From an uncultured Treponema sp. (GTDB lineage: Bacteria; Spirochaetota; Spirochaetia; Treponematales; Treponemataceae), in NCBI GenBank assembly GCA_947176045.1, contig CAMWPF010000002.1, forward strand, positions 1 to 34,225: 34,225 bases of DNA, given 5' to 3'. The stretch's first letter is position 1. The number at the start of each line of letters is the position of its first letter. The notes beneath the pieces were generated by a model that was not told where the DNA came from, made no database searches, and saw only the letters and a list, made by a program, of their open reading frames with translations. Position numbers and translations under genes: made by a program. Shown piece after piece: positions 858 to 34,140 of this stretch.

Positions 858-2498
858 GTGACGCAATCGACGGAAAAAAAATCGCTCGTGAAATCCGGGC
901 TGCTGCTTTCACTGATGACATTCCTCTCCCGCATCATGGGACTGCTCCGCGAAATGACGAAGGCCGCGTTCCTCGGAACAAGCGCCTACGCGGACGCGTT
1001 CGGCATCGCCTTTATGATTCCGAACCTGTTCCGGCGGCTGTTCGCGGAAAACAGCATTTCAGTCGCGTTCATCCCCACGTTCCGCGGCTATCTTGAGGAC
1101 GACAGGGACGCCGGAACGCACGCCGCCATCCAGCTGTTCATCTCATCGACGCTGACGCTCGTCTCCTTCCTGACCGCAATCGTCACCGTGCTGGGAATCC
1201 TCGCGGCGCCGCTCATCGTTCCGATTTTCTACGGGCGCGGCGCGGACGCGGACATCCTTGCCGAAACGGCGTTTCTGACGCGGATTATGTTTCCGTACCT
1301 GTTCGTGATTTCCGCGGCGGCGTTCCTGCAAGGCATCCTGAACGGCTGCAACAGCTTCGCGCCGTCGGGATTCACGCCCGTGCTGTTCAACGGAATCGTC
1401 GTCGCCGTAACGTACTTCCTGACGCCGCAGCTGCCGAACCCGGAACACCTTCCGCAGGAAGCGCTGGCGGCGCGTGCCATGGCGTTCGGCGTGCTGACCG
1501 GCGGCTGCTTCCAGGCGCTGTTCCAGTGGCCGTTCGTGCGGAAGACCGGCTGGAAGACGACGCTCACCGGACTTCGGAACGCCTTCACAAATCCGGGAAC
1601 GCGGAAGGTCGTGGCGCTCATCGTTCCGACCATCATCGGAATGGCGGCGTACCAGCTCAACGACTTGGTTTCGACGGCGATTGCCGGAAAGACGGGAACG
1701 GGAACAGTCAGCAGCCTGCAATACTCCCTGCGACTTCAGGAGCTGATCCTCGGCATCTTCGCCGTTTCCATCGGAACGGTGATCCTGCCGGATCTGTCGG
1801 GGCTGGCGAAAAACCAGAAATGGCGCGAATTCAACGAAATGCTCGTACAGGCAATCAAAATCATCGCGCTCATCACGATTCCCGTTACGTTCTATTCGCT
1901 GGTTTCCGGCCGCGAGCTGATTTCGCTCGTGTACAAGACGAAGAATTTCGACGACAGATCTGTCGCGCTGACGCTCAGCGTCTTCCGCTTCCATATCGCC
2001 GGACTGTTCTTCATCGCCGCGAACCGCGTCATCTCTCCGGCGTTCTACGCGCAGGGCAACACCAAGCTGCCGACGCTCGCGGGCATCATCTGCTTCGGCG
2101 CGAACATCGCGCTCGCATTCCTGCTGTCCTTCCCGATGAAGGGAAACGGCATCGCGCTCGCCCTGACGCTCGCCAGCTTCGTCAATACAGCCTGCCTGTT
2201 CCTGTTCATGCGGAAAATGCCGTCGATGGACATGCGCGGCATCGCGAAAAAAATGCTCGGCTGCGTCGTGCGCACCACCTGCTTTTCCATCATCGCCGCG
2301 GCGCCCGCGTTCTTTGTGCGGCAGCTCCTCGTGCGCGCCGCCGCCGGACGCGGACGGCTCCTTGCATACGGAATCCCGGTGCTTGGAACCGCAGCCGTAT
2401 TCGCCGCCGTCGGCATCGCGCTGCTCGTCCTGTTCCGCGACGAGACCGCGGCCGCGGTCTCAGCAAAGCTGCGCGGAAAATTCCGGCGGAAGGCGTAG
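858..2498 (+). CDS. murJ: Lipid II flippase MurJ (MviN family)
   Basis: 546 aa polytopic membrane protein; SGLLLSLMTFLSRIMGLLREMTKAAFLGTSAYADAFGIAFMIPNLFRRLFAENSISVAFIPTF is characteristic of MurJ/MviN. Probable GTG start. Confidence 0.95.
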   Translation: MTQSTEKKSLVKSGLLLSLMTFLSRIMGLLREMTKAAFLGTSAYADAFGIAFMIPNLFRRLFAENSISVAFIPTFRGYLEDDRDAGTHAAIQLFISSTLTLVSFLTAIVTVLGILAAPLIVPIFYGRGADADILAETAFLTRIMFPYLFVISAAAFLQGILNGCNSFAPSGFTPVLFNGIVVAVTYFLTPQLPNPEHLPQEALAARAMAFGVLTGGCFQALFQWPFVRKTGWKTTLTGLRNAFTNPGTRKVVALIVPTIIGMAAYQLNDLVSTAIAGKTGTGTVSSLQYSLRLQELILGIFAVSIGTVILPDLSGLAKNQKWREFNEMLVQAIKIIALITIPVTFYSLVSGRELISLVYKTKNFDDRSVALTLSVFRFHIAGLFFIAANRVISPAFYAQGNTKLPTLAGIICFGANIALAFLLSFPMKGNGIALALTLASFVNTACLFLFMRKMPSMDMRGIAKKMLGCVVRTTCFSIIAAAPAFFVRQLLVRAAAGRGRLLAYGIPVLGTAAVFAAVGIALLVLFRDETAAAVSAKLRGKFRRKA

Positions 2499-2528: not shown

Positions 2529-2551
2529 GCCGGCATGACGCCGCCGCGCGG
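2529..2551. repeat. 23-nt direct repeat copy 1 (GCCGGCATGACGCCGCCGCGCGG)
   Basis: Identical to 4809-4831; lies between the convergent ends of murJ and the CotH-like gene. Confidence 0.85.
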
Positions 2552-2559
2552 GACGACAA

Positions 2560-4350
2560 TCATTCCGGCACGGAGAACGATTCTCCTGCAATCCACAAAA
2601 TCCGATTCCGCACCACGTCCTTGACAAAATCAAAATCCTCATCAAATGAATCAAGCGGCGGACTGCCGACCGGGTTTGGATGCGCGCCCCACCGCAGCGC
2701 GTCCAATTCAGCGGCGGACGAAATTGCGCCGCGGATCGCATCCGCCCGTGCGCACGCCGCATCTGCGTCCAGCCGGGCGGCATATTTGGAAACCGCGTCG
2801 TTGAATTCCGGCGTCTTGAACAGTGCGCCAAAATATATCGTGTTTCTGTCGATGAAATCCGTGTCATTGCGGCCCGCCGCCCAGTCGAAATCCCAAACCG
2901 GCCCAGCCTTTAGCAGATGCGCCGTGTTGTCGAACAAAACATAGCAGGATTTCGGATGTCCCAATTCGCCGTTGCGCATGACTTCATTGACCACGTAAAA
3001 CTGCGCGAACGAATCCACGTCGATATGCCGGATATCAGCAGCGTCGCCGTACAGCTCGCCTTCAATCTGCGCAATCCATTGTTCGATGTCTTTCAGCCTC
3101 TCGTCCGTCATTGAATCGTCGTTCTTGATGTTGTACGGCAGCCCCTTCTTTTCCGACTTGAATTTCCACGCTTCGTCAAAATATGTGTCCAATTCCATCA
3201 AATAATCATCGTCCTCGTCGATGGCGACGCGGTTTTCGTCCGCCTTGATCGCCTCGCCGAGCCAGTACAATCCAAGAAATTCACCGTTCAAGACGAGCTG
3301 CACATACTCGCCGCCGACCGTCCAGTCCATTCCAAGCTGTCGGCTCAGGCAGAACGCCATCTCATTCTTTATGAATGAATTGTCCAAATAGTTCGCAATC
3401 AGAACCCACCGCTTGTGCTTGGGCATTCCAAGCATTTCCCGCTTTTTGCCGAGCTTGAGCGCATACGGCTTCTTCTTCTGATTCCACGTCGAATTGCCGC
3501 GGCCGCGGATGAACGTTTCGACTGTTTCACAATTCCAATCGGCGTCGTCCGCCCCTGCAATGCTGATTGTTCCCGGAATCCAATCCTCCTTGTTCAAAAT
3601 GGGAACATCATTCGTATCAACCGTTACAACAGGAAGTCCCGAACCGACTGTCCGGCAGATTACAGCGGCATCCGAATCAACGGATTTTCTGCCGCCGCTG
3701 GAAACGAGCGTCGCCGTGCAATAATACTCCGCCAAAACATAGTCGTTCCGTTCCAGCGATGAAAACGGAAGCGAAACTTCGCACCAGCTCCCAAATTCAA
3801 CGGCGGACGCATCAGACGCGAACACTTCCGAAAATTCCGCCTCATTCGGATTTTTTCGGAACCATCGATAGGAAAGCTCTCCGGAGCAGTCGACGAAGAC
3901 AGTCGCCTTCAGCAGATAATCGTCCGCATACATCGGAATTTCCGCGCCTTCCGGCTGCGACCAGAACGCAAAAACCGGCTTCATGACCGCCACCCTGAAC
4001 GAGGCGGCAAAATCACCATACACAACGCGGACATCATGGGTTCCCGCCTCCGTCAGAACCGCCCCATCAGGCGGCTCCACGCTGTACGAATCCCGTTCCA
4101 GTTCACGACATGTTCCGTCTGCCTGCACATAGACGACGGAAAGCCCTTTCAAATCCAGCGCGTCCTCCACAAAATACTGCACCTTTTCGGGCGGCGATTC
4201 AACGCGGAGCGTTTCCGCATACACTGTCTCCGAAACGACTGTCTCGACAACTTCTGCCTCCTGCCTGCATCCAGCCGCAACTCCGGCGGCAAACAGCAGC
4301 AACGCCGAGTCCGCTAAAAAAATCAATGTGCTACGCGCTTTTTTCACCAC
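2560..4350 (-). CDS. CotH-like (spore coat kinase fold) lipoprotein with N-terminal Ig-like region
   Basis: Lipoprotein-type N-terminus (LLLFAAGVAAGC). CotH-family signatures: FIRGRGNSTWNQKKKPYALKLGKK, WVLIANYLDNSFIKNEMAF, GPVWDFDWAAG. GTG start (4350 or 4347). Confidence 0.85.
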   Translation of the reverse strand: MVKKARSTLIFLADSALLLFAAGVAAGCRQEAEVVETVVSETVYAETLRVESPPEKVQYFVEDALDLKGLSVVYVQADGTCRELERDSYSVEPPDGAVLTEAGTHDVRVVYGDFAASFRVAVMKPVFAFWSQPEGAEIPMYADDYLLKATVFVDCSGELSYRWFRKNPNEAEFSEVFASDASAVEFGSWCEVSLPFSSLERNDYVLAEYYCTATLVSSGGRKSVDSDAAVICRTVGSGLPVVTVDTNDVPILNKEDWIPGTISIAGADDADWNCETVETFIRGRGNSTWNQKKKPYALKLGKKREMLGMPKHKRWVLIANYLDNSFIKNEMAFCLSRQLGMDWTVGGEYVQLVLNGEFLGLYWLGEAIKADENRVAIDEDDDYLMELDTYFDEAWKFKSEKKGLPYNIKNDDSMTDERLKDIEQWIAQIEGELYGDAADIRHIDVDSFAQFYVVNEVMRNGELGHPKSCYVLFDNTAHLLKAGPVWDFDWAAGRNDTDFIDRNTIYFGALFKTPEFNDAVSKYAARLDADAACARADAIRGAISSAAELDALRWGAHPNPVGSPPLDSFDEDFDFVKDVVRNRILWIAGESFSVPE

Positions 4351-4473
4351 GCCCCCTTGCCATAAAAGGCATTTATCAAAACAAAGATTCCATACAATAC
4401 ATTTTTAACAGAATAACTTCCATATGGTCCAGTTTTTAAAAAATAAATTTCTTTTATGGTGTAATGACAGTGC

Positions 4474-4818
4474 ATGGGCTTTTCGGAAAATTTTCGTGAC
4501 GAACTTGAATATCAGGGAATCCAGCTGAAGGAATTTTCCAGACGTTCTGGAATCAGTTTGAACACATTGAACAAGTACAACTCCGGCTCAAGCGTCGTGC
4601 CGAACATCGAGACGGCAAAAAGAATTGCAGACACGCTTCATGTCTCGCTGGACTTTCTTGTTTCCGGGAGGCTGTGCGGCATTGAATCCCAGAATCCGAA
4701 AATCCAGGAAATTGCCAGAATGCTTCGGAAGCTTTCTCCAACGGAACTGGACGCAATTCAGGCAGTCGTCTCGGCCATTGCACAAAAGCACGGGGAAACG
4801 CACAAACCGCCGGCATGA
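4474..4818 (+). CDS. XRE/Cro-CI-type helix-turn-helix transcriptional regulator
   Basis: 114 aa; FRDELEYQGIQLKEFSRRSGISLNTLNKYNSGSSVVPNIETAKRIADTLHVSLDFLVSG is a canonical HTH_3 domain. Its last codons and stop lie inside the 23-nt repeat. Confidence 0.88.
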   Translation: MGFSENFRDELEYQGIQLKEFSRRSGISLNTLNKYNSGSSVVPNIETAKRIADTLHVSLDFLVSGRLCGIESQNPKIQEIARMLRKLSPTELDAIQAVVSAIAQKHGETHKPPA

Positions 4819-4831
4819 CGCCGCCGCGCGG
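4809..4831. repeat. 23-nt direct repeat copy 2 (GCCGGCATGACGCCGCCGCGCGG)
   Basis: Identical to 2529-2551; overlaps the XRE stop codon and ends just before the coaE stop. Confidence 0.85.
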
Positions 4832-4832
4832 C

Positions 4833-5498
4833 TTAGATGCGCCGGTTGAACGCCGCGACCAGCTTCCTTTCAAGCGCGGCAAGCCCGCCGCAGTTCCAGA
4901 CGCGGACCATCGGAATCCCGGTGGCGGCGTACGCGGAAAAAAGCCCGGACTGCGCGCGGAACCGCGCCACAACCTGCCCGAAGCGCAGATTGTCCCGGCG
5001 AAGAGCGCGCGCCAGACGCACAACCGCCGGCGCGTCCACAAAGATGATGCGCCCGCAGCGCTCCATAAGGGCGGGCGTCTTGTACAGAACCGCCGCGTTC
5101 AAAATGACGCCGGCGCAGCCCGCAGAAATCCGCGCCGCAATCTCCGCTTCCGCGCGGCGCACGACGGCGGGATAAACCAACGCCTCCTGCCGCGCAAGCA
5201 GTTCCGGCCGCGGAAAAACCAGCCGTCCCAGCGCGCGCCTGTCCAAGCGCCCGTCCGCACCGACAAGCCGAATGCCGGAAGCGGCGGCGTCCGCAGAAAA
5301 CGCCGACAGAATGTCCGCCTCGATTTCCTGAACCGCGCCGTGGACAAGCTCGTCCGCGTCCAGCGCGGCAAAGCCGTACTTTTCCAGAATCGCGGAGGCG
5401 GCGTTCTTCCCTGCCGCCATCGGCCCGGTTACGCAGAGAACCGGCGGAAGCGGCGCGCCGCCGGCAGCTTCCAGCGGAATGTTCCAGCGCGCGCTCAA
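4833..5498 (-). CDS. coaE: Dephospho-CoA kinase
   Basis: 221 aa; PPVLCVTGPMAAGKNAASAILEKYGFAALDADELVH with downstream VILNAAVLYKTPALMERCGRIIFVDAP. TTG start overlaps the polA stop (TTGA). Confidence 0.85.
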   Translation of the reverse strand: MSARWNIPLEAAGGAPLPPVLCVTGPMAAGKNAASAILEKYGFAALDADELVHGAVQEIEADILSAFSADAAASGIRLVGADGRLDRRALGRLVFPRPELLARQEALVYPAVVRRAEAEIAARISAGCAGVILNAAVLYKTPALMERCGRIIFVDAPAVVRLARALRRDNLRFGQVVARFRAQSGLFSAYAATGIPMVRVWNCGGLAALERKLVAAFNRRI

Positions 5499-8338
5499 TG
5501 GAATTCACCCCAGTTCTTGCCGCATTCAATCGAAACGCGGAGCGGCACGCGCAGCGCCACGGCATTTTCCATCTTTTCGCGCACAATGCGGACGGTCTCG
5601 CCGATTGCCTGCTCGTCATCCGGACATTCCAGAATCAGCTCGTCGTGCACCTGCACGAGCAGCCGGGCGCCGTCCGGACCTCCGCGGAGCGCGGCGTCAA
5701 CGTCCAGCATCGCCTTCTTCACAATGTCGGCGGCGCTTCCCTGAACCGGCGTATTCACCGCTACGCGCTCCGCTCCCGCGCGCTCGATCTTGTTGCGGCT
5801 GTTAATGCTCAAAATGGCGCGCCGCCTCCCGAAAATCGTCTCGACAAATCCGTCCCGCTCCGCCTTCCGCACCGTTTCGTCCATGAAATTCCGCACCGAA
5901 GCATACGTCTTGAAATAGTTTTCGATGAATTCCGCCGCCTGCGGCCGGGAAATGCCCAAACCGCCGGCAAGCCGGAAGGAACTCATGCCGTAGATGACGC
6001 CGAAATTGATGGTCTTCGCCGTGCGCCGCATCTCCGGCGTCACCGCCTCCGGCTCCACTCCGAAAATCAGCGCGGCGGTCGCCCGGTGGATGTCCGTTCC
6101 TGACTGGAAGGCGGCGCACATCGTTCCGTCGCCGGACAGATGCGCGAGCACCACCAGCTCAATCTGCGAATAATCCGCAGAAATCAGCACCGTCCCCGGC
6201 GCCGCCGTAAACGCACTTCGGATCCGGCGCCCTGCCTCGTTGCGCACCGGAATGTTCTGCAAATTCGGATCGCGGCAGGAAAGCCGCCCGGTCGCCGTTC
6301 CCGTCTGGATGAAGTCCGTGTGAATGCGCCCGGCAGCATCGCAGAGCAGCGGAAGCGTCTCCACATACGTCGATTGCAGCTTGGAAAGCTCGCGGTAGTC
6401 CAGAATCATGCGTGGAACCGCATCGAACAGCGCCAGCTCCTCAAGCACGGATGTGTCCGTCGAATAGCCGCGCTTCGTCTTCTTGCCGGGCTTGAGCCCG
6501 CGTTCCGTAAAAAGCACTTCCTGCAGCTGCTTTGTCGAAGCGATGTTGAACGGATGCCCGACTTCGGCGTAAATTCCGTTCTGGGCGTCCTCTATGTTCC
6601 GAGTCAGCTCCTCGTTGTATTGGAGCAGCGTCTGCGCGTCCAGATGGATTCCGGCGATTTCCATTTCCGCAAGCACTGGAAGCAGCTTCATTTCGATGTC
6701 GGAAAAAAGTTCCGCCAGCCCGCGCTCCGCAAGCCGTTCCCGAAGGACAAGCCACAGCTGGAACGTAAAGTCCGCGTCCTCAGCGGCATACGGCGCCGCC
6801 TTTTCCAGCGGCACGTCGGCGAACGTCTGCTTCTTCCCGACAATTTCATCATATTCCGTTCCGGAAAGCCCCAGATAGGCCTCCGCCAGATGCTCCAGAC
6901 TGTAGGCGTTCTTTCCCGTCCGGTCGGGCGACAGAAGCCACTCGGCAATCATCGTGTCGGCGAGCGTGCAGCGCGGACGCCCGCCGGAAAAGCTGATTCC
7001 GGCGGTGCGCAGCACCTTGTAGTCGAACTTTCCGTTGTGAAGGACGACCGTCACGGACGGCTCGTCGAACAGGCGCGCAATTTCACGCAGGGCGTCGGCA
7101 AGCGGCACAAAATCGCCCGCGTCAAACATATCGTTCGTAAAAATCGGAACGTAGACGGCGCTGCCCGCCGCGCAGCACAGGCTGAATCCGACCATGCGCG
7201 CGGAAAGCGTGTCCAATGAGTCCGTCTCGCAGTCAAAGGCGACCGTCCGCTCCGCCGAACGCAGGACGGCATCGACGAACTGCGAAAGCTCCCCGGCGCT
7301 GCGGACGGCGCGGTAGTCGCCGGAATTCTTGACAAGCGGCGCCCGCTGCGATTCGTCTGGAATTTCCGCGCCATCGCCGCCTTCTTCCGAAGGCGCCGCC
7401 TCCGTTCCGCCGCTGTCGGACAGCGCCTCGCCTGAGCCGCCGCCAGACGAAACGGCAAGTTCGACATACTGCTTCGCGACCGACGGAACGCCGAATTTTT
7501 TAAGCAGCTCCGCGGCGGCGGCGCAGTCCAGCACGACCGGCTCCCCGAACACCGCCCCATCTATTTCAGGGCAGGGAACATCCGCGCACAGCCGGACAAG
7601 CTGTTGGGAAAAATACGCGCTTTCCCTGCCGTCCGCCAGCTTCTTCTGCACGGCGCCCTTGATGTCGCCGATGTGCGCGTAAATGCCGTCCAGCGTTCCA
7701 TATTCGGCAAGCAGCTTCGCGGATGTTTTGACGCCGACGCCTTTGACGCCTGGAATATTGTCCGACGTGTCGCCGAAAAGCGCGAGCAGGTCCAGCAGCT
7801 GCGACGGCATGACGCCCCACTCCGCCTTCACACCGTCAACGCCCGTAACCTTCCAGACATCGGCATGATCCGGCTTGAGAATCTGCGTCGAATCCGTAAC
7901 AAGCTGCATCAAATCCTTGTCGCCCGAAAGAATCCTGCACGTCCGCCCGGCCGCCTCGCATTTTTTCGCGGCCGTAGCAATCACATCGTCCGCCTCGTAG
8001 CCCTCGCACTGAAGCACAGGAATTCCCAGCGCGCGCAGGACATCCTCAATCCACGGAATCTGCTCGTGCAGATCCTCCGGCGTCTTGTTGCGCGTCGCCT
8101 TGTATTCCGCATACAATTTGTGCCGGAACGTCGCACTTTTTGAATCCATCGCAGCGGCAATATGCAGCGGCTTGTAGTGCTTTAAAATCGAATGCAAATT
8201 CCGAAAAAATCCGAACAGCGCGGACACATTCTGTCCCGCCTGATTTGTCAGCGGACGTGAAACGAACGCAAAATAACAGCGGTAAATCAGCCCGTACGAA
8301 TCCAAAATATAGAATGTATTTTCGTCAAAATCAGCCAT
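5495..8338 (-). CDS. polA: DNA polymerase I (5'-3' exo, 3'-5' exo and polymerase domains)
   Basis: 947 aa; FYILDSYGLIYRCYFAF (5' nuclease), FDCETDSLD / HNGKFDYKVL / YAAEDADF (exo motifs), TATGRLSCRDPNLQNIPVR, VQVHDELILE (pol motifs). Confidence 0.97.
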   Translation of the reverse strand: MADFDENTFYILDSYGLIYRCYFAFVSRPLTNQAGQNVSALFGFFRNLHSILKHYKPLHIAAAMDSKSATFRHKLYAEYKATRNKTPEDLHEQIPWIEDVLRALGIPVLQCEGYEADDVIATAAKKCEAAGRTCRILSGDKDLMQLVTDSTQILKPDHADVWKVTGVDGVKAEWGVMPSQLLDLLALFGDTSDNIPGVKGVGVKTSAKLLAEYGTLDGIYAHIGDIKGAVQKKLADGRESAYFSQQLVRLCADVPCPEIDGAVFGEPVVLDCAAAAELLKKFGVPSVAKQYVELAVSSGGGSGEALSDSGGTEAAPSEEGGDGAEIPDESQRAPLVKNSGDYRAVRSAGELSQFVDAVLRSAERTVAFDCETDSLDTLSARMVGFSLCCAAGSAVYVPIFTNDMFDAGDFVPLADALREIARLFDEPSVTVVLHNGKFDYKVLRTAGISFSGGRPRCTLADTMIAEWLLSPDRTGKNAYSLEHLAEAYLGLSGTEYDEIVGKKQTFADVPLEKAAPYAAEDADFTFQLWLVLRERLAERGLAELFSDIEMKLLPVLAEMEIAGIHLDAQTLLQYNEELTRNIEDAQNGIYAEVGHPFNIASTKQLQEVLFTERGLKPGKKTKRGYSTDTSVLEELALFDAVPRMILDYRELSKLQSTYVETLPLLCDAAGRIHTDFIQTGTATGRLSCRDPNLQNIPVRNEAGRRIRSAFTAAPGTVLISADYSQIELVVLAHLSGDGTMCAAFQSGTDIHRATAALIFGVEPEAVTPEMRRTAKTINFGVIYGMSSFRLAGGLGISRPQAAEFIENYFKTYASVRNFMDETVRKAERDGFVETIFGRRRAILSINSRNKIERAGAERVAVNTPVQGSAADIVKKAMLDVDAALRGGPDGARLLVQVHDELILECPDDEQAIGETVRIVREKMENAVALRVPLRVSIECGKNWGEFH

Positions 8339-9158: not shown

Positions 9159-9998
9159 ATGACAGGTGACGAAAGCGTTTTAGCGATGTATCTGAAAGAC
9201 ATCAACAAGGTTCCATTGCTTTCACGGGAAGAAGAAATTGAACTTGCCAAAAAGGCAGCCGGCGGCGACAAGGCCGCAAAAGATAAAATTGCACGGGCGA
9301 ACCTCCGCTTTGTCGTGAACGTTGCAAAAAAATACCAGAACCACGGACTTGATCTGACTGATTTGATCGGGGAAGGAAACATCGGACTGCTGACTGCCAT
9401 CGAACGCTTCGACGTCGGCAAGGGCTACCATTTCATCTCATACGCCGTCTGGTGGATCCGGCAGGCGATTTTGAAGGCCATCTGCGAAAAGAGCCGCTCC
9501 ATCCGGCTGCCCTTGAACCGCGCCAACGAGCTTGTTCAAATCGAACACGCCCGCAAGATCGTCGCCGGAAACAAGACGGAGGAGCAGGAATTTGAAGAAG
9601 TCGCCGCCATGCTCAACATGGACGCACGGCATGTCCGCGAAATGGTCACTATTTCCCGCGAAATGGTTTCTTTGGACGCAGTCGTCCACACGTCCGAACA
9701 CGACCACACGACTATGGGCGACTTTATCGAAGACACCGCTTCCGCGCAGCCGGATTCCGGCGTCATGCAGGAGGCCATGAAGAACGACCTCAACGAAGTG
9801 CTCGACACATTGAAGCCGAACGAGGCGCGCGTCCTGCGCCTCCGCTACGGCATCGGCCGGGAAAAGCCGATGTCGCTCAAAGAAGTCGGAGACGTCTGCA
9901 ACCTGACGAAGGAGCGAATCCGCCAGATTGAAAAGCACGCGATTGTCAGGATGCGCCATCCGACGCGGCTGCGCCGCCTTGAAGCGTATTCTGCATAA
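9159..9998 (+). CDS. Short sigma-70 family RNA polymerase sigma factor (group 2/RpoS-like architecture)
   Basis: MTGDESVLAMYLKDINKVPLLSREEEIELAKKA...DLIGEGNIGLLTAIERFDVGKGYHFISYAVWWIRQAI...LRLRYGIGREKPMSLKEVGDVCNLTKERIRQIEKHA. No region 1.1. ATG 9159 has SD AAGGAG 7 nt upstream; the ORF-track start at 9105 is inside the promoter. Confidence 0.93.
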   Translation: MTGDESVLAMYLKDINKVPLLSREEEIELAKKAAGGDKAAKDKIARANLRFVVNVAKKYQNHGLDLTDLIGEGNIGLLTAIERFDVGKGYHFISYAVWWIRQAILKAICEKSRSIRLPLNRANELVQIEHARKIVAGNKTEEQEFEEVAAMLNMDARHVREMVTISREMVSLDAVVHTSEHDHTTMGDFIEDTASAQPDSGVMQEAMKNDLNEVLDTLKPNEARVLRLRYGIGREKPMSLKEVGDVCNLTKERIRQIEKHAIVRMRHPTRLRRLEAYSA

Positions 9999-12210
9999 AC
10001 TGGAAGGCGTCGGCGCGCGCCTGCACGAGGATGTCATGGTCGCGCACGATGTCTGCAATTCCCAGCGTCAAGTTTCCCGCCTGAAGGGTTCCGGCAATTT
10101 CGCCGGGCCCTCTCAATTTTAAATCCTGATCGGCAATCAAAAATCCGTCCGTACTCTGCCGCAACACCTTCATCCGCTCGATTCCTGCCTGCGTGATGTT
10201 CCTGCTGTATATCAAAAAGCAGAACGCCTGCCCGCCGCCGCGACCGACGCGTCCGCGCAGCTGGTGGAGCTGCGCCAGTCCGAAGCGGTCGGCCTGCTCG
10301 ATAACGATGCACGTCGCGTTCGGAACGTCCACGCCGACTTCGATGACCGTCGTCGCGGCAAGCACGTGGATCTTCCCGCTGCGGAAATCAGAAAGGATGC
10401 GGATCTGCTCCTCCTCGTCGATTTTTGAATGGAGCAGCGCGCATTTGAATTCCGGGTACACTTCCGTGGAAAGCGTCTGGAACATCTCTTCGGCGGACTT
10501 GAGCCGCGCCGCGGAGCCGCCGTTCCGAAATTCCGCGCCATCGTCCGTGGCGCCGCCTGCCGCCCCGCCTGCGTCCGAAAATTCGGAACTGATTGCAGGA
10601 TATACGAAATACGCCTGCCGCCCTTCCAGCAGCTGCTTCCGAACGGCGCTGTAGGCGTTCCGCTCGTTTCCCTCGCAGACAAGGTACGTCTGGACAGGCT
10701 TGCGGCCGGGCGGCATCGTCTTGATGGACGACACGTCCAAGTCGCCGAACACAGTCAGCGCCAGCGTCTGCGGAATCGGCGTGGCGCTCATCATCAGAAG
10801 GTGCGGCTCCAGCGTAACGCCGCCGTCCGATTCCAGCTGGCGCCCCTTGCTGATGATCGTCTGCCGCTGCACGACGCCGAACCGATGCTGCTCGTCGATG
10901 ACGACAAGCTGCAAGTCCTTGTATACAACCTGCGCGGAAAACAGCGCGTGCGTTCCGATTATGATGTCGATTTCGCCGGACTTCAGCGCCTTCAGAAGCT
11001 GCATCCTGCCCGCCGCCTTGACGTTGCCCGTCAGGAACGCGACGGTAACGCCCAGCGGCTCAAGCAGCCGCGCGGCGGACTCAGCGTGCTGCCGCGCCAG
11101 AATTTCCGTCGGCGCCATGAACGCGCACTGCCCCTTCCAGCTGATTGCGCGGAGGCAGGCGAAGAACGCGACGAGCGTCTTGCCGGAGCCGACGTCGCCT
11201 TGCAGCAGCCGCGCCATCGTGAACGGCGTCTTTCCGGCATTCCCGTTCAGGAGGGAATTCCGCTCCGTATAGCCGCGGTCGATCTCCGCGTTCATTTCCG
11301 AAACGACCTTCCGCTGATCCGGCGTCAGCGGAAAGCCGAGCCGCCCGTACAGCTGCCGCTGCAACGGCGACAGCGCCTCCGCAAACGCCGCCTCCTGCGC
11401 GTCCTCCAGCACATCCGGCTGCGCGGCGGCATCTTCCGCGGCGGCGTCCGCAACGCTCAAATCGGCGGCGGGAATGGCGCCCTTGTGCCTCCACGCGCGC
11501 TCCGCCATGACGCACTGGAACTGGAACAATTCCTCATAAATGAGCGTCCGGCGCGCCTCTTGAATTTCCTGCGGCGAATCCGGCTGGTGGATCAATTTAA
11601 CCGCCGCCTGCTTGGACAGAAGCCCGCGCGCCCGGATGATTTTCTCAGGAAGCTCGTCCTCAATGCCGCGGACATACCGCGAAACCGCCGCCGCGACCGC
11701 CTTCCTGACATTCTTCTGGTTCAGCCCCTCGGTGAGCGCGTACACCGGCAGGATTCCGGCGTCCGGCAGCGGCATTCCGTCGAAGTCCTCGACCGCGCCC
11801 GAATCCGCAAGCTTCGTCACATCGAAAGACGTTGTCTGAATCTGCCCGTACTTGACCGAAAAACGCCCCGTTATGGCGACGATGGAACCGACCGGCAGCG
11901 AATTCTGGAGGAATTTCCGGTTGAAGGCGATGAGCGCGGCGGACGCCGTTCCGTCGGACACAATCAACTTCAGCGTCCGCATCTTTCCGTAGCCGAACCA
12001 TTCGTGTGCCGTTACCTGCGCCACGGTATGCACGTTCGCCCGCTCGAACGCGTCGATGGGAACGCGCCTGCGGCGGTCTTCATAATCACGCGGATACCAT
12101 TGCAGCAGCTCCGCGACGGTAAAGATGTTCAGCTTTGCGAACAGCTTCACCGTCGCAGGCCCCACGCCGGGCAGCGCGGAAACCGGCGATTTGATTTCGG
12201 CAAGCTTCAT
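9946..12210 (-). CDS. recG: ATP-dependent DNA helicase RecG
   Basis: 754 aa; LPGVGPATVKLFAKLNIFTVAELLQWYPRDYEDRR, RLLQGDVGSGKTLVAFFA, VVIDEQHRFGVVQR, LLMMSATPIPQTLALT, QLHQLRGRVGRG. Confidence 0.97.
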   Translation of the reverse strand: MKLAEIKSPVSALPGVGPATVKLFAKLNIFTVAELLQWYPRDYEDRRRRVPIDAFERANVHTVAQVTAHEWFGYGKMRTLKLIVSDGTASAALIAFNRKFLQNSLPVGSIVAITGRFSVKYGQIQTTSFDVTKLADSGAVEDFDGMPLPDAGILPVYALTEGLNQKNVRKAVAAAVSRYVRGIEDELPEKIIRARGLLSKQAAVKLIHQPDSPQEIQEARRTLIYEELFQFQCVMAERAWRHKGAIPAADLSVADAAAEDAAAQPDVLEDAQEAAFAEALSPLQRQLYGRLGFPLTPDQRKVVSEMNAEIDRGYTERNSLLNGNAGKTPFTMARLLQGDVGSGKTLVAFFACLRAISWKGQCAFMAPTEILARQHAESAARLLEPLGVTVAFLTGNVKAAGRMQLLKALKSGEIDIIIGTHALFSAQVVYKDLQLVVIDEQHRFGVVQRQTIISKGRQLESDGGVTLEPHLLMMSATPIPQTLALTVFGDLDVSSIKTMPPGRKPVQTYLVCEGNERNAYSAVRKQLLEGRQAYFVYPAISSEFSDAGGAAGGATDDGAEFRNGGSAARLKSAEEMFQTLSTEVYPEFKCALLHSKIDEEEQIRILSDFRSGKIHVLAATTVIEVGVDVPNATCIVIEQADRFGLAQLHQLRGRVGRGGGQAFCFLIYSRNITQAGIERMKVLRQSTDGFLIADQDLKLRGPGEIAGTLQAGNLTLGIADIVRDHDILVQARADAFQFMQNTLQGGAAASDGAS

Positions 12211-22737: not shown

Positions 22738-23877
22738 ATGACGGAACTTTCACGGGACGAACTCAAAAAACGGTACGCGGCGCGGCGCGCAAAGGTCGCG
22801 GCATATTTGAAGGAGCATGGCGTAGGAGCCGCTGTCTTCATAGACAGCGAGGAACGCCGGGAGCCGGCGCTGCGCTACTTCACCGGACATCCGAGCGATG
22901 CCGCGCTCATCATCTTCGATGACGGCGCGTCCGTCCTGATTCCGTGGGATGAAATCCTTGCGAAAAGCCAGGCGTCCTGCGGCAAGCTGATTCCGTACGC
23001 GCGCTACCGGAACAACGCGGTGGCGGCGGTGCAGGCGAACCTCAACGCGGCATCGCGCATTGAAAACCGCCGGGCGGAGCTGCCGCCGTCCACACCGTAC
23101 CTCCAGTTCCTCAAATTCGTGGACGCCGTGCCCGGCTGGGACATGAAGATAACGGAAGAAGGCGTCCATGCATACGCCGTCCGCCTGCGGGCGGTCAAGG
23201 ACGAATACGAAATCGCGTGCCTCAAGGAAGCGGCGCGCATCGGAGACTTGATCATCGACAGAATTGAGGCGGAAATCGGCAGCATCAAGACAGAAATAGA
23301 CGTCGCGCTGCTGATTGAGCGGGAATGCCGCGCGCATGGCTGCGAGCGCACCGGCTTCGACACGCTCGCCGCAGGCCCTGAACGCAGCTGGGCGATCCAC
23401 TGCTTCCCGAACTATACGGCGGGCGCGTGGCCCGGCGGCGGGCTTTCCATCCTCGACTTCGGCGTCGTCTGCAACGGATACACCAGCGACACGACGCTGA
23501 CAGTCGCGAAGGGGCCGCTTTCCGACGGGCAGGAACAGCTGCTGGCCCTCGTCCAGAAGGCCGCCGACGAATGCCTGCCGCTGTACCGCAAGGGCGTGCC
23601 GCTCCGAACCGCCGCTGAAAAAGCCGACGCAGTCTTCGCCGCCGCAAAGCGCAAGATGCCGCACACGCTCGGACACGGCATCGGGCTGGAAGTCCACGAA
23701 TATCCGCGCGTCAGCGCGGCGATGCCGGAATCGGCCGTTTTCGAGGCGGGCATGGTCGTAACGCTGGAGCCGGGGCTGTACGACGAGGCGCTCGGCGGCT
23801 GCCGCTTGGAAAACGACGTGCTCATTACGGAAGCCGGCAGCGAAGTCATCTCGCATTCGCGGATCATCCGCATATAA
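22738..23877 (+). CDS. M24 family metallopeptidase (Xaa-Pro aminopeptidase/dipeptidase)
   Basis: 379 aa; LSILDFGVVCNGYTSDTTLTV, HTLGHGIGLEVHEYPRV, FEAGMVVTLEPGLYDEALGGCRLENDVLITEAGSEVIS carry the metal-ligand motifs. Confidence 0.93.
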   Translation: MTELSRDELKKRYAARRAKVAAYLKEHGVGAAVFIDSEERREPALRYFTGHPSDAALIIFDDGASVLIPWDEILAKSQASCGKLIPYARYRNNAVAAVQANLNAASRIENRRAELPPSTPYLQFLKFVDAVPGWDMKITEEGVHAYAVRLRAVKDEYEIACLKEAARIGDLIIDRIEAEIGSIKTEIDVALLIERECRAHGCERTGFDTLAAGPERSWAIHCFPNYTAGAWPGGGLSILDFGVVCNGYTSDTTLTVAKGPLSDGQEQLLALVQKAADECLPLYRKGVPLRTAAEKADAVFAAAKRKMPHTLGHGIGLEVHEYPRVSAAMPESAVFEAGMVVTLEPGLYDEALGGCRLENDVLITEAGSEVISHSRIIRI

Positions 23878-32262: not shown

Positions 32263-34140
32263 TTAGTTAGACTCAGTTACCTCTACGGTCCATTTATTAC
32301 TCTCTGCTTTCTTGTCGCCCCATGTTTTCACTACTTTGTACACATACGTTGTTGAGCCGGAGTCCGCAACAGAAACAGTATCTGTGTATGTCTTGCTGTA
32401 ATCTTTCTTGCCTGTTCCCAAATTAGCATCAAGTTCTACCCATACAGCGTCATCGGAATTATATTCACTATTAGACCGATACAATGTGTACGAGTAGTCG
32501 GAAGAAGAATATTCATCTTCAACGGTGATTGATACCTTTTTATCTCCTTTTTCATCCGTAGCTGCAGCAGTGATTGACGGAACAGAAGGCTGAACGTCGA
32601 TTTCAACCGCATCAGAAATCCATTCGCCTGCTTTTTTGTCTGCCTGTGCAGTTGTAACGAGCATATACACGTTTACATCTTTGTGTTTTTCTGTGGTAAC
32701 AGTATAGCCGTTAGTATTATAGGTGGGGGCATCAACAAGCGGTTTTAACTGAGCCGTGAGGTTTTTGGCGTCTGCTTTGTCAAAGTCAGCCGCACATGGT
32801 GCTGTGCTGTCTGTAAGCGGTTTTTCAAGAATGTATACGCCTGTAACCGTAACATCGTCCGAAGAAGCAAGAGGAAGTGTAATTGTCCATTCGATGTCTT
32901 GTGTCAGATTGATGTAGTCAGTGTTTGCGTCAGCACCGCGGACGGTTGTGGTGCTTTGTGTGCTGACGAAAGCACTTACAGATGCAGTGTTAGAGGGGTT
33001 GCCACTGGTATTTTTGACAGGTGCAAACCGTGTGCCGTCTGTTACAACAAGCGTGTATGTGTAGTCGACAGTGTTGTCGGGAACAACATCTTCAACACGG
33101 AATGCGTTTTCGTTTGCTGCTGTTTCCGTTACGGCTCCGCTTACTGCCGTGTAGTCGTACTTTCCTTTTACAGAACGGTATACTTTGTAATATTCTGTCG
33201 GAACAGGAGTGTCGTCAGCGGTAAATTTTGCACCCTCAAAAGAGATGCTGACAGTCTTGCCGTCCGCAGTGTCTTTGTAAACGGCAGATATATTTGCATA
33301 GTAGTTGTAGGTGGTGGTGCCGCCCGATGTAGTGCTGCTGTTATAAACATTCAGGCTTTCTACCGTTACGCTTTCTTCTGAAACAACCTGCTCAGACGTG
33401 CCGAACAGCGAGTTTCCTGCATTGGCAACTACAACCGCCCTGTATACGCCCGGTGCGGTGATTGTTGTACTTTTTCCGATTGTTACGTCGTTTACCGCAG
33501 AAGTAACAGAACCGCTGACCGGAGTTTTTTCACCGATTGTCTCAAGTTCGTTGCCGCGTGTGTAGTAAATGTCGTATGAAAGATATGCTTTTACCGGCAT
33601 TGTGATGCCGAGTTTGCTGCTTGCGTCACGTGCAATGCGTATGTTTGAGGCAGAGACAACATAGTCGGCATTTCCTTTCGGGGATTCTTTTGTGCCGTAG
33701 TTTTCATAAGCGTACAGCTCAAGGGATTTTGTATCTGCCGGCGGAAGAATTCCTTTCACCGTAACGCCGCCGCTCATCGCGTTCTCCGTGTTCACAGAAC
33801 GTGAAGTAGAAGTAGAAGACTTGCTTTTTGCCTCAACATAGTATGTACGCTCAACGCCGTTCTTTATATTGCTTGTGTCAGAAGTCCGCAGCTCATTATA
33901 AGCAAAAGTCCAGCTGTCTATGCACACTCCGTTCTCATAGGCGTAGAGGACATAGCCGTTCGCACCTGCAACCGGCTTCCACGAGACAATGTTCATCCCC
34001 GGATATGCAGTTGCCTTTACCTCAGGAATTTCCAAGTACAATACAGTGTCGATGTGCGAATCATACGCCACATCGTCTGCACACGACACAAAAAACAGTG
34101 CTGCCAGAACCGCGGCAGCCGCCAAAAATGTTTTTTTCAT
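32263..34140 (-). CDS. Large surface lipoprotein with FnIII/Ig-like repeats
   Basis: 625 aa; MKKTFLAAAAVLAALFFVSCADD (lipobox FVSC), beta-rich repeats (IVSWKPVAGANGYVLYAYENG, YYKVYRSVKGKYDYTAVSG, DYSYTLYRSNSEYNSDDAVW), conserved Y/W FnIII-like spacing. Confidence 0.75.
   Translation of the reverse strand: MKKTFLAAAAVLAALFFVSCADDVAYDSHIDTVLYLEIPEVKATAYPGMNIVSWKPVAGANGYVLYAYENGVCIDSWTFAYNELRTSDTSNIKNGVERTYYVEAKSKSSTSTSRSVNTENAMSGGVTVKGILPPADTKSLELYAYENYGTKESPKGNADYVVSASNIRIARDASSKLGITMPVKAYLSYDIYYTRGNELETIGEKTPVSGSVTSAVNDVTIGKSTTITAPGVYRAVVVANAGNSLFGTSEQVVSEESVTVESLNVYNSSTTSGGTTTYNYYANISAVYKDTADGKTVSISFEGAKFTADDTPVPTEYYKVYRSVKGKYDYTAVSGAVTETAANENAFRVEDVVPDNTVDYTYTLVVTDGTRFAPVKNTSGNPSNTASVSAFVSTQSTTTVRGADANTDYINLTQDIEWTITLPLASSDDVTVTGVYILEKPLTDSTAPCAADFDKADAKNLTAQLKPLVDAPTYNTNGYTVTTEKHKDVNVYMLVTTAQADKKAGEWISDAVEIDVQPSVPSITAAATDEKGDKKVSITVEDEYSSSDYSYTLYRSNSEYNSDDAVWVELDANLGTGKKDYSKTYTDTVSVADSGSTTYVYKVVKTWGDKKAESNKWTVEVTESN

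Follow-up and report, generated by a model that had tools for sequence, protein, structure and literature searches.

The 2.3-kb block that separates murJ from coaE in an uncultured Treponema, and that is framed by perfect 23-bp direct repeats, is best explained as an acquired accessory-gene module inserted at the murJ/coaE boundary, with the repeats as its footprint (rough probability 0.5). According to this explanation, cotH and a divergent, self-contained XRE repressor would have entered the boundary together, and one 23-bp stretch, either duplicated or common to donor and target, would have come to flank the insert. The 3' end of xre would have run into this stretch and gained its stop codon there. 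The block was analysed within a stretch of 34,225 nt (the window), which belongs to a Treponema MAG of 1.86 Mb (313 contigs, 84.5% completeness).

The repeat pair and the genes between its copies

The longest exact direct repeat of the window is the 23-mer GCCGGCATGACGCCGCCGCGCGG, which occurs on the same strand at 2529-2551 and 4809-4831 (start-to-start distance, 2280 bp), exactly as the initial annotation had reported. The runners-up are 15 nt long, and the longest repeat in 100 dinucleotide shuffles of the window had a mean length of 15.3 nt and a maximum of 18 nt. No third copy with up to three mismatches is present elsewhere in the window or elsewhere in the 1.86-Mb MAG. With two copies only, the 23-mer is not common at unrelated intergenic sites, and the earlier suggestion of recombination between dispersed repeats finds no support. 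A dispersed repeat family was also considered and rejected: the core GGCGTCATGCCGGC, allowing one mismatch, gave nine matches compared with three for a control pattern, and was exact only at the two window copies.

The first copy (forward strand) lies in the tail-to-tail gap between murJ (858..2498, forward strand) and cotH (2560..4350, reverse strand), between the two stop codons. The second copy (forward strand) includes the stop codon of xre (4474..4818, forward strand) and ends 1 bp before the stop codon of coaE (4833..5498, reverse strand). Close members of the XRE family stop at EKYK or EKYN, whereas the window XRE runs on for ~7 residues (ETHKPPA) into the repeat. The XRE of another locus, L217 (G081:C71), likewise continues past the family end point into its own 46-nt repeat. 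The tail fits an insert edge at the 3' end of xre, with the stop codon contributed by flanking DNA, but is suggestive only, as C-terminal tails vary. The 3' end of xre (4793-4820) also matches antisense polA (5947-5974) at 24 of 28 nt. Given the four mismatches and a conserved polA motif, a polA-templated xre tail was rejected and the match is probably a coincidence.

Both genes of the block are transcribed divergently. The cotH product is a 596-aa lipoprotein with the signal LFAAGVAAGC, a Big_3 domain (PF07523) and a CotH kinase domain (PF08757) containing an invariant WDFDW motif. The kinase-domain match spans residues 281-584 and profile positions 1-319 of 322 (E 4e-34; 119 bits, gathering cut-off 23.8). 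In a comparison of ten homologues, D487 and D489, candidate catalytic residues for a putative kinase activity, are invariant and the GPVWDFDW region nearly so; CotH would presumably be active at the cell surface. Sequence comparison with the PDB returned chance or Ig-like matches only. The xre gene encodes a predicted 114-aa HTH_3 repressor with full-length similarity to the RstR family (NF041951), scoring 49.8 bits, below the curated NCBIfam cut-off of 80. The domain matches bear out the initial annotation of a divergent CotH-like lipoprotein and XRE regulator, and its observation that the block contains no recombinase is correct. In the library of papers searched, we found nothing relevant on Treponema CotH or on divergent XRE-lipoprotein pairs.

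The lower GC content noted by eye between the repeats was confirmed, at 52.1% compared with 61.3% for murJ and 67.7% for coaE. The individual values are 54.2% for cotH (GC3 0.64) and 49.3% for xre (GC3 0.56), with GC3 of 0.82 in murJ and 0.78 in coaE, and the codon usage of cotH and xre differs mildly from the rest. Surface proteins and regulators are commonly of lower GC. The gene at 32266-34140, which encodes a 625-aa putative lipoprotein (46% GC, no Pfam match), has strongly deviant codon usage and is a second candidate acquired gene of the window. Because it deviates even more than cotH and xre, composition alone is weak evidence. No tRNA was found at the block, nor any terminal inverted repeat: a search of 100 bp at each end gave no inverted match longer than 6 nt.

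The murJ/coaE junction and a related pair at another locus

In 53 of the 65 relatives whose murJ flanks could be read, murJ is followed by pepP, and neither coaE nor polA occurs in the murJ flank of any of the 65. In the window, ~20 kb (2499-22738) separate murJ from pepP (Peptidase_M24; 22738..23874, forward strand), which marks the far end of a rearranged block containing polA, recG, dnaE, uvrC and genes for a fibronectin-III-domain protein and a TPR protein. The pairing of polA with coaE is conserved. This gene order points to a lineage-specific rearrangement that involved the polA/coaE block. Since murJ-pepP is the conserved order in relatives, cotH/xre lies at a lineage-specific boundary, and the arrangement is not one that is ancestral and syntenic among them. 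The initial annotation overlooked that the murJ/coaE boundary marks a rearrangement, so that its neighbours formed no simple ancestral target. No genome compared has an empty murJ-coaE site; the nearest MurJ found is only ~77% identical to that of the window, and a direct empty site is therefore not demonstrable for this species.

The same divergent pair is present in the genome G037, where the XRE and CotH are 56% and 43% identical, respectively, to the window proteins. Among the loci examined, only in G037 does a close XRE stand beside a close CotH, giving the pair a patchy distribution. In G037 the pair takes up ~3.65 kb. The genes on either side of it are direct neighbours in two relatives, G045 and G172, with a gap of 12-15 bp, and the flanks share ~71% DNA identity with those in G037. 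The G045/G172 junction is an empty site for the G037 pair, which is a clear insertion. The G037 insert is bordered by a 26-nt direct repeat, one copy of which lies over the xre stop codon; the repeat is imperfect (23/26) and A-rich and carries little weight. Insertion is demonstrated for the G037 pair, and for the window copy we infer it. Together with the lineage-specific junction, the G037 insertion supports that part of the initial annotation which proposed a cassette between murJ and coaE.

XRE loci and predicted operators across the treponemes

The search for the XRE family covered 196 genomes of the genus. Short XREs of the window type are numerous, reaching 21 per genome, and point away from the upstream neighbour at 130 of 142 loci, compared with 189 of 501 control genes (38%; p about 5e-33). 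Their neighbours, as named by sequence inspection, include lipoproteins, acyltransferases, DNA methyltransferases and HsdM-like proteins. The pairing of one small regulator type with many different accessory genes is a recurring treponeme layout, of which cotH/xre is a modest but real example.

The first survey for flanking repeats covered 104 XRE places, and the second, on an independent set, 27 XRE loci. The strong cases in the first set measure 46, 45, 44 and 23 nt. Besides the window, three first-set loci (in G081, G161 and G190) have long direct repeats, with one copy at the xre stop region and the other on the far side of the cargo. At L267 (G161:C32), 130-nt direct repeats (7885-8014 and 9194-9323; 97% identical, unique in the genome) surround an XRE-cargo pair by a PIN-domain-like fragment. 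The G161 genome carries a true integron integrase (IntI), and these repeats may be long attC sites. At L299 (G190:C1), 85-nt direct repeats (7913-7997 and 10936-11020; 91% identical, two copies only in the genome) surround an XRE and a divergent lipoprotein. The repeat at L217 (7949-7997 and 12026-12074; 46-49 nt) is the source of the XRE stop codon; it belongs to a dispersed family with about 46 matches in the G081 genome, among which the flanking pair is the closest-matching one. None of the 27 loci of the second set has flanking repeats. With the window left out, the pooled data show flanking repeats at 3 of 96 XRE loci; the control counts are 3 in 696 (p 0.03) or 18 in 1392 (p 0.15). The idea that flanking direct repeats generally mark the XRE family was dropped on the result of the second set; repeats do occur at XRE loci, yet they are no hallmark of the family.

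The intergenic region of the window pair contains a candidate operator, TGCCATAAAAGGCA (4358..4371), of the form TGCC-N6-GGCA, at the cotH ribosome-binding site. A palindrome of the same form, TGCCTTTAATGGCA, is found upstream of xre in the G037 intergenic region, and operator-like palindromes such as these two are rare in shuffles. Even-centred dyads with at least 8 of 9 pairs occur in 43 of 130 XRE intergenic regions; in the divergent regions used as controls the rate is lower, at 12 of 122 (p 5e-6). Odd-centred dyads show no enrichment in the same comparison. XRE intergenic regions are richer in A+T (28% GC, compared with 37% in controls). Such richness alone, however, would also increase odd-centred dyads. 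The pattern fits a dimeric repressor with a predicted operator between the two genes. In the window, an XRE dimer would bind TGCC-N6-GGCA beside the cotH ribosome-binding site and keep cotH off until a signal acts; the XRE would probably repress its own gene as well. At locus L170, a strong hairpin comes after the 26-aa hydrophobic ORF at 4554-4634 (MTTYEKLALCVMILGLIIDVLTYFKK). The arrangement resembles that of type I holin-like toxins, and the ORF has no Pfam match.

Origin of the repeats and relation to known systems

The block stands exactly at a lineage-specific rearrangement boundary, with the normally adjacent murJ and pepP now 20 kb apart and uvrC-omp-TPR lying between them, and this position would also suit a different history: the 23-bp duplication might stem from break repair when the block from coaE to the TPR gene moved between murJ and pepP, cotH/xre being already beside one of the breakpoints. 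We consider such a scar possible but unlikely. Inversion breakpoints usually give inverted rather than direct duplications, no related 23-mer is found at the other boundary near pepP, and the repeats frame precisely cotH/xre, which is an insertion unit elsewhere (G037). Direct repeats around a gene pair that has no recombinase could alternatively be sites for a host or trans-acting tyrosine recombinase, either Xer- or integron-like, in which case the block would still be able to circularise. The resemblance of the XRE, at its sub-threshold score, to the RstR repressor of Xer-dependent CTX-type elements speaks for such sites, as do the Xer-like recombinases encoded in the same genome and the integrons known in Treponema (PMC3607928). 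However, the 23-mer contains neither AAC nor GTT core triplets, and so no attC R''/R' boxes, and it has no unusual fold; it is GC-rich and, compared by eye with the AT-rich dif consensus, unlike dif. No second site exists elsewhere in the genome, and in the search for an integron integrase the MAG, at 84.5% completeness, yields only Xer-like matches that score below the cut-off. We regard this origin as improbable.

Still less credible is a shared 3'-end signal or a coincidence, by which the 23-mer would be terminator-like, or otherwise selected in two tail-to-tail gaps, and uninformative on insertion. Both copies do lie in convergent 3'-3' gaps, but a T-run is lacking, the 23-mer folds no better than shuffles in any of the four contexts, and it is absent from every other gap of the genome. 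An RNA element was likewise dropped, as the repeats have no Rfam match. Insertion as one unit is the reading to which we return. Counted in its favour are a 23-mer in two copies only and longer than any shuffled repeat, the GC and codon contrast, the conservation of murJ-pepP, the G037 case, the patchy distribution, the xre tail, the repeats in G161, G190 and G081, and the enrichment of even-centred palindromes. Counted against it are the lack of an empty murJ-coaE site and of a recombinase, terminal inverted repeat, tRNA or attC at the block, the length of the repeat relative to transposase target duplications, the absence of repeats from the second set, the modest pooled p values, the imperfect and A-rich G037 repeat and the commonness of low GC in such genes.

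A wider model, which we put forward tentatively and with more doubt than belief, is that treponemes harbour recombinase-less regulator-plus-cargo modules. In these, an RstR-like XRE would stand nearly always divergent from a swappable gene (CotH, lipoproteins, acyltransferases, DNA methyltransferases), and the whole would be moved by a host mechanism that sometimes leaves direct repeats over the xre stop codon. If true, gut treponemes would have put one repressor type to repeated use in controlling a variety of exchangeable genes for surface and defence functions, and the movement of recombinase-less blocks could be approached directly through the repeat pair. The cotH/xre case offers a testable candidate operator, a candidate empty-site sequence and, in G037, a comparison locus with a clear insertion.

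The block shares features with several known systems. Like insertion sequences and MITEs with target-site duplications, it is surrounded by a short perfect direct repeat found nowhere else, but it has neither terminal inverted repeats nor a transposase, and the duplication is unusually long; to our knowledge, 23 bp exceeds the target duplications made by bacterial transposases. The cargo protein has a full match to the CotH kinase family (PF08757), including the conserved GPVWDFDW region, but is a Big_3 lipoprotein of a spirochaete rather than a spore-coat protein, and its kinase activity is putative. CTX-type elements integrate by means of host XerC/XerD. Their RstR/rstA control region resembles the window pair in its small Cro/CI-type repressor, with full-length similarity to RstR (NF041951), in the divergent orientation of this repressor to the facing gene and in having no recombinase of its own. 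It differs in that the window XRE scores under the cut-off, the repeats contain no dif-like sequence and the cargo is a CotH lipoprotein instead of replication genes. Integron gene cassettes have been described in T. denticola and T. succinifaciens (PMC3607928). Although the window repeats are only 23 bp long and without R'/R'' boxes, and the genome has no IntI above the cut-off, the cassettes are likewise recombinase-less blocks between direct repeats, variable among strains and found in the same genus (PMC3607928), and G161, the genome that contains the sister XRE locus with 130-nt repeats, encodes a true IntI.
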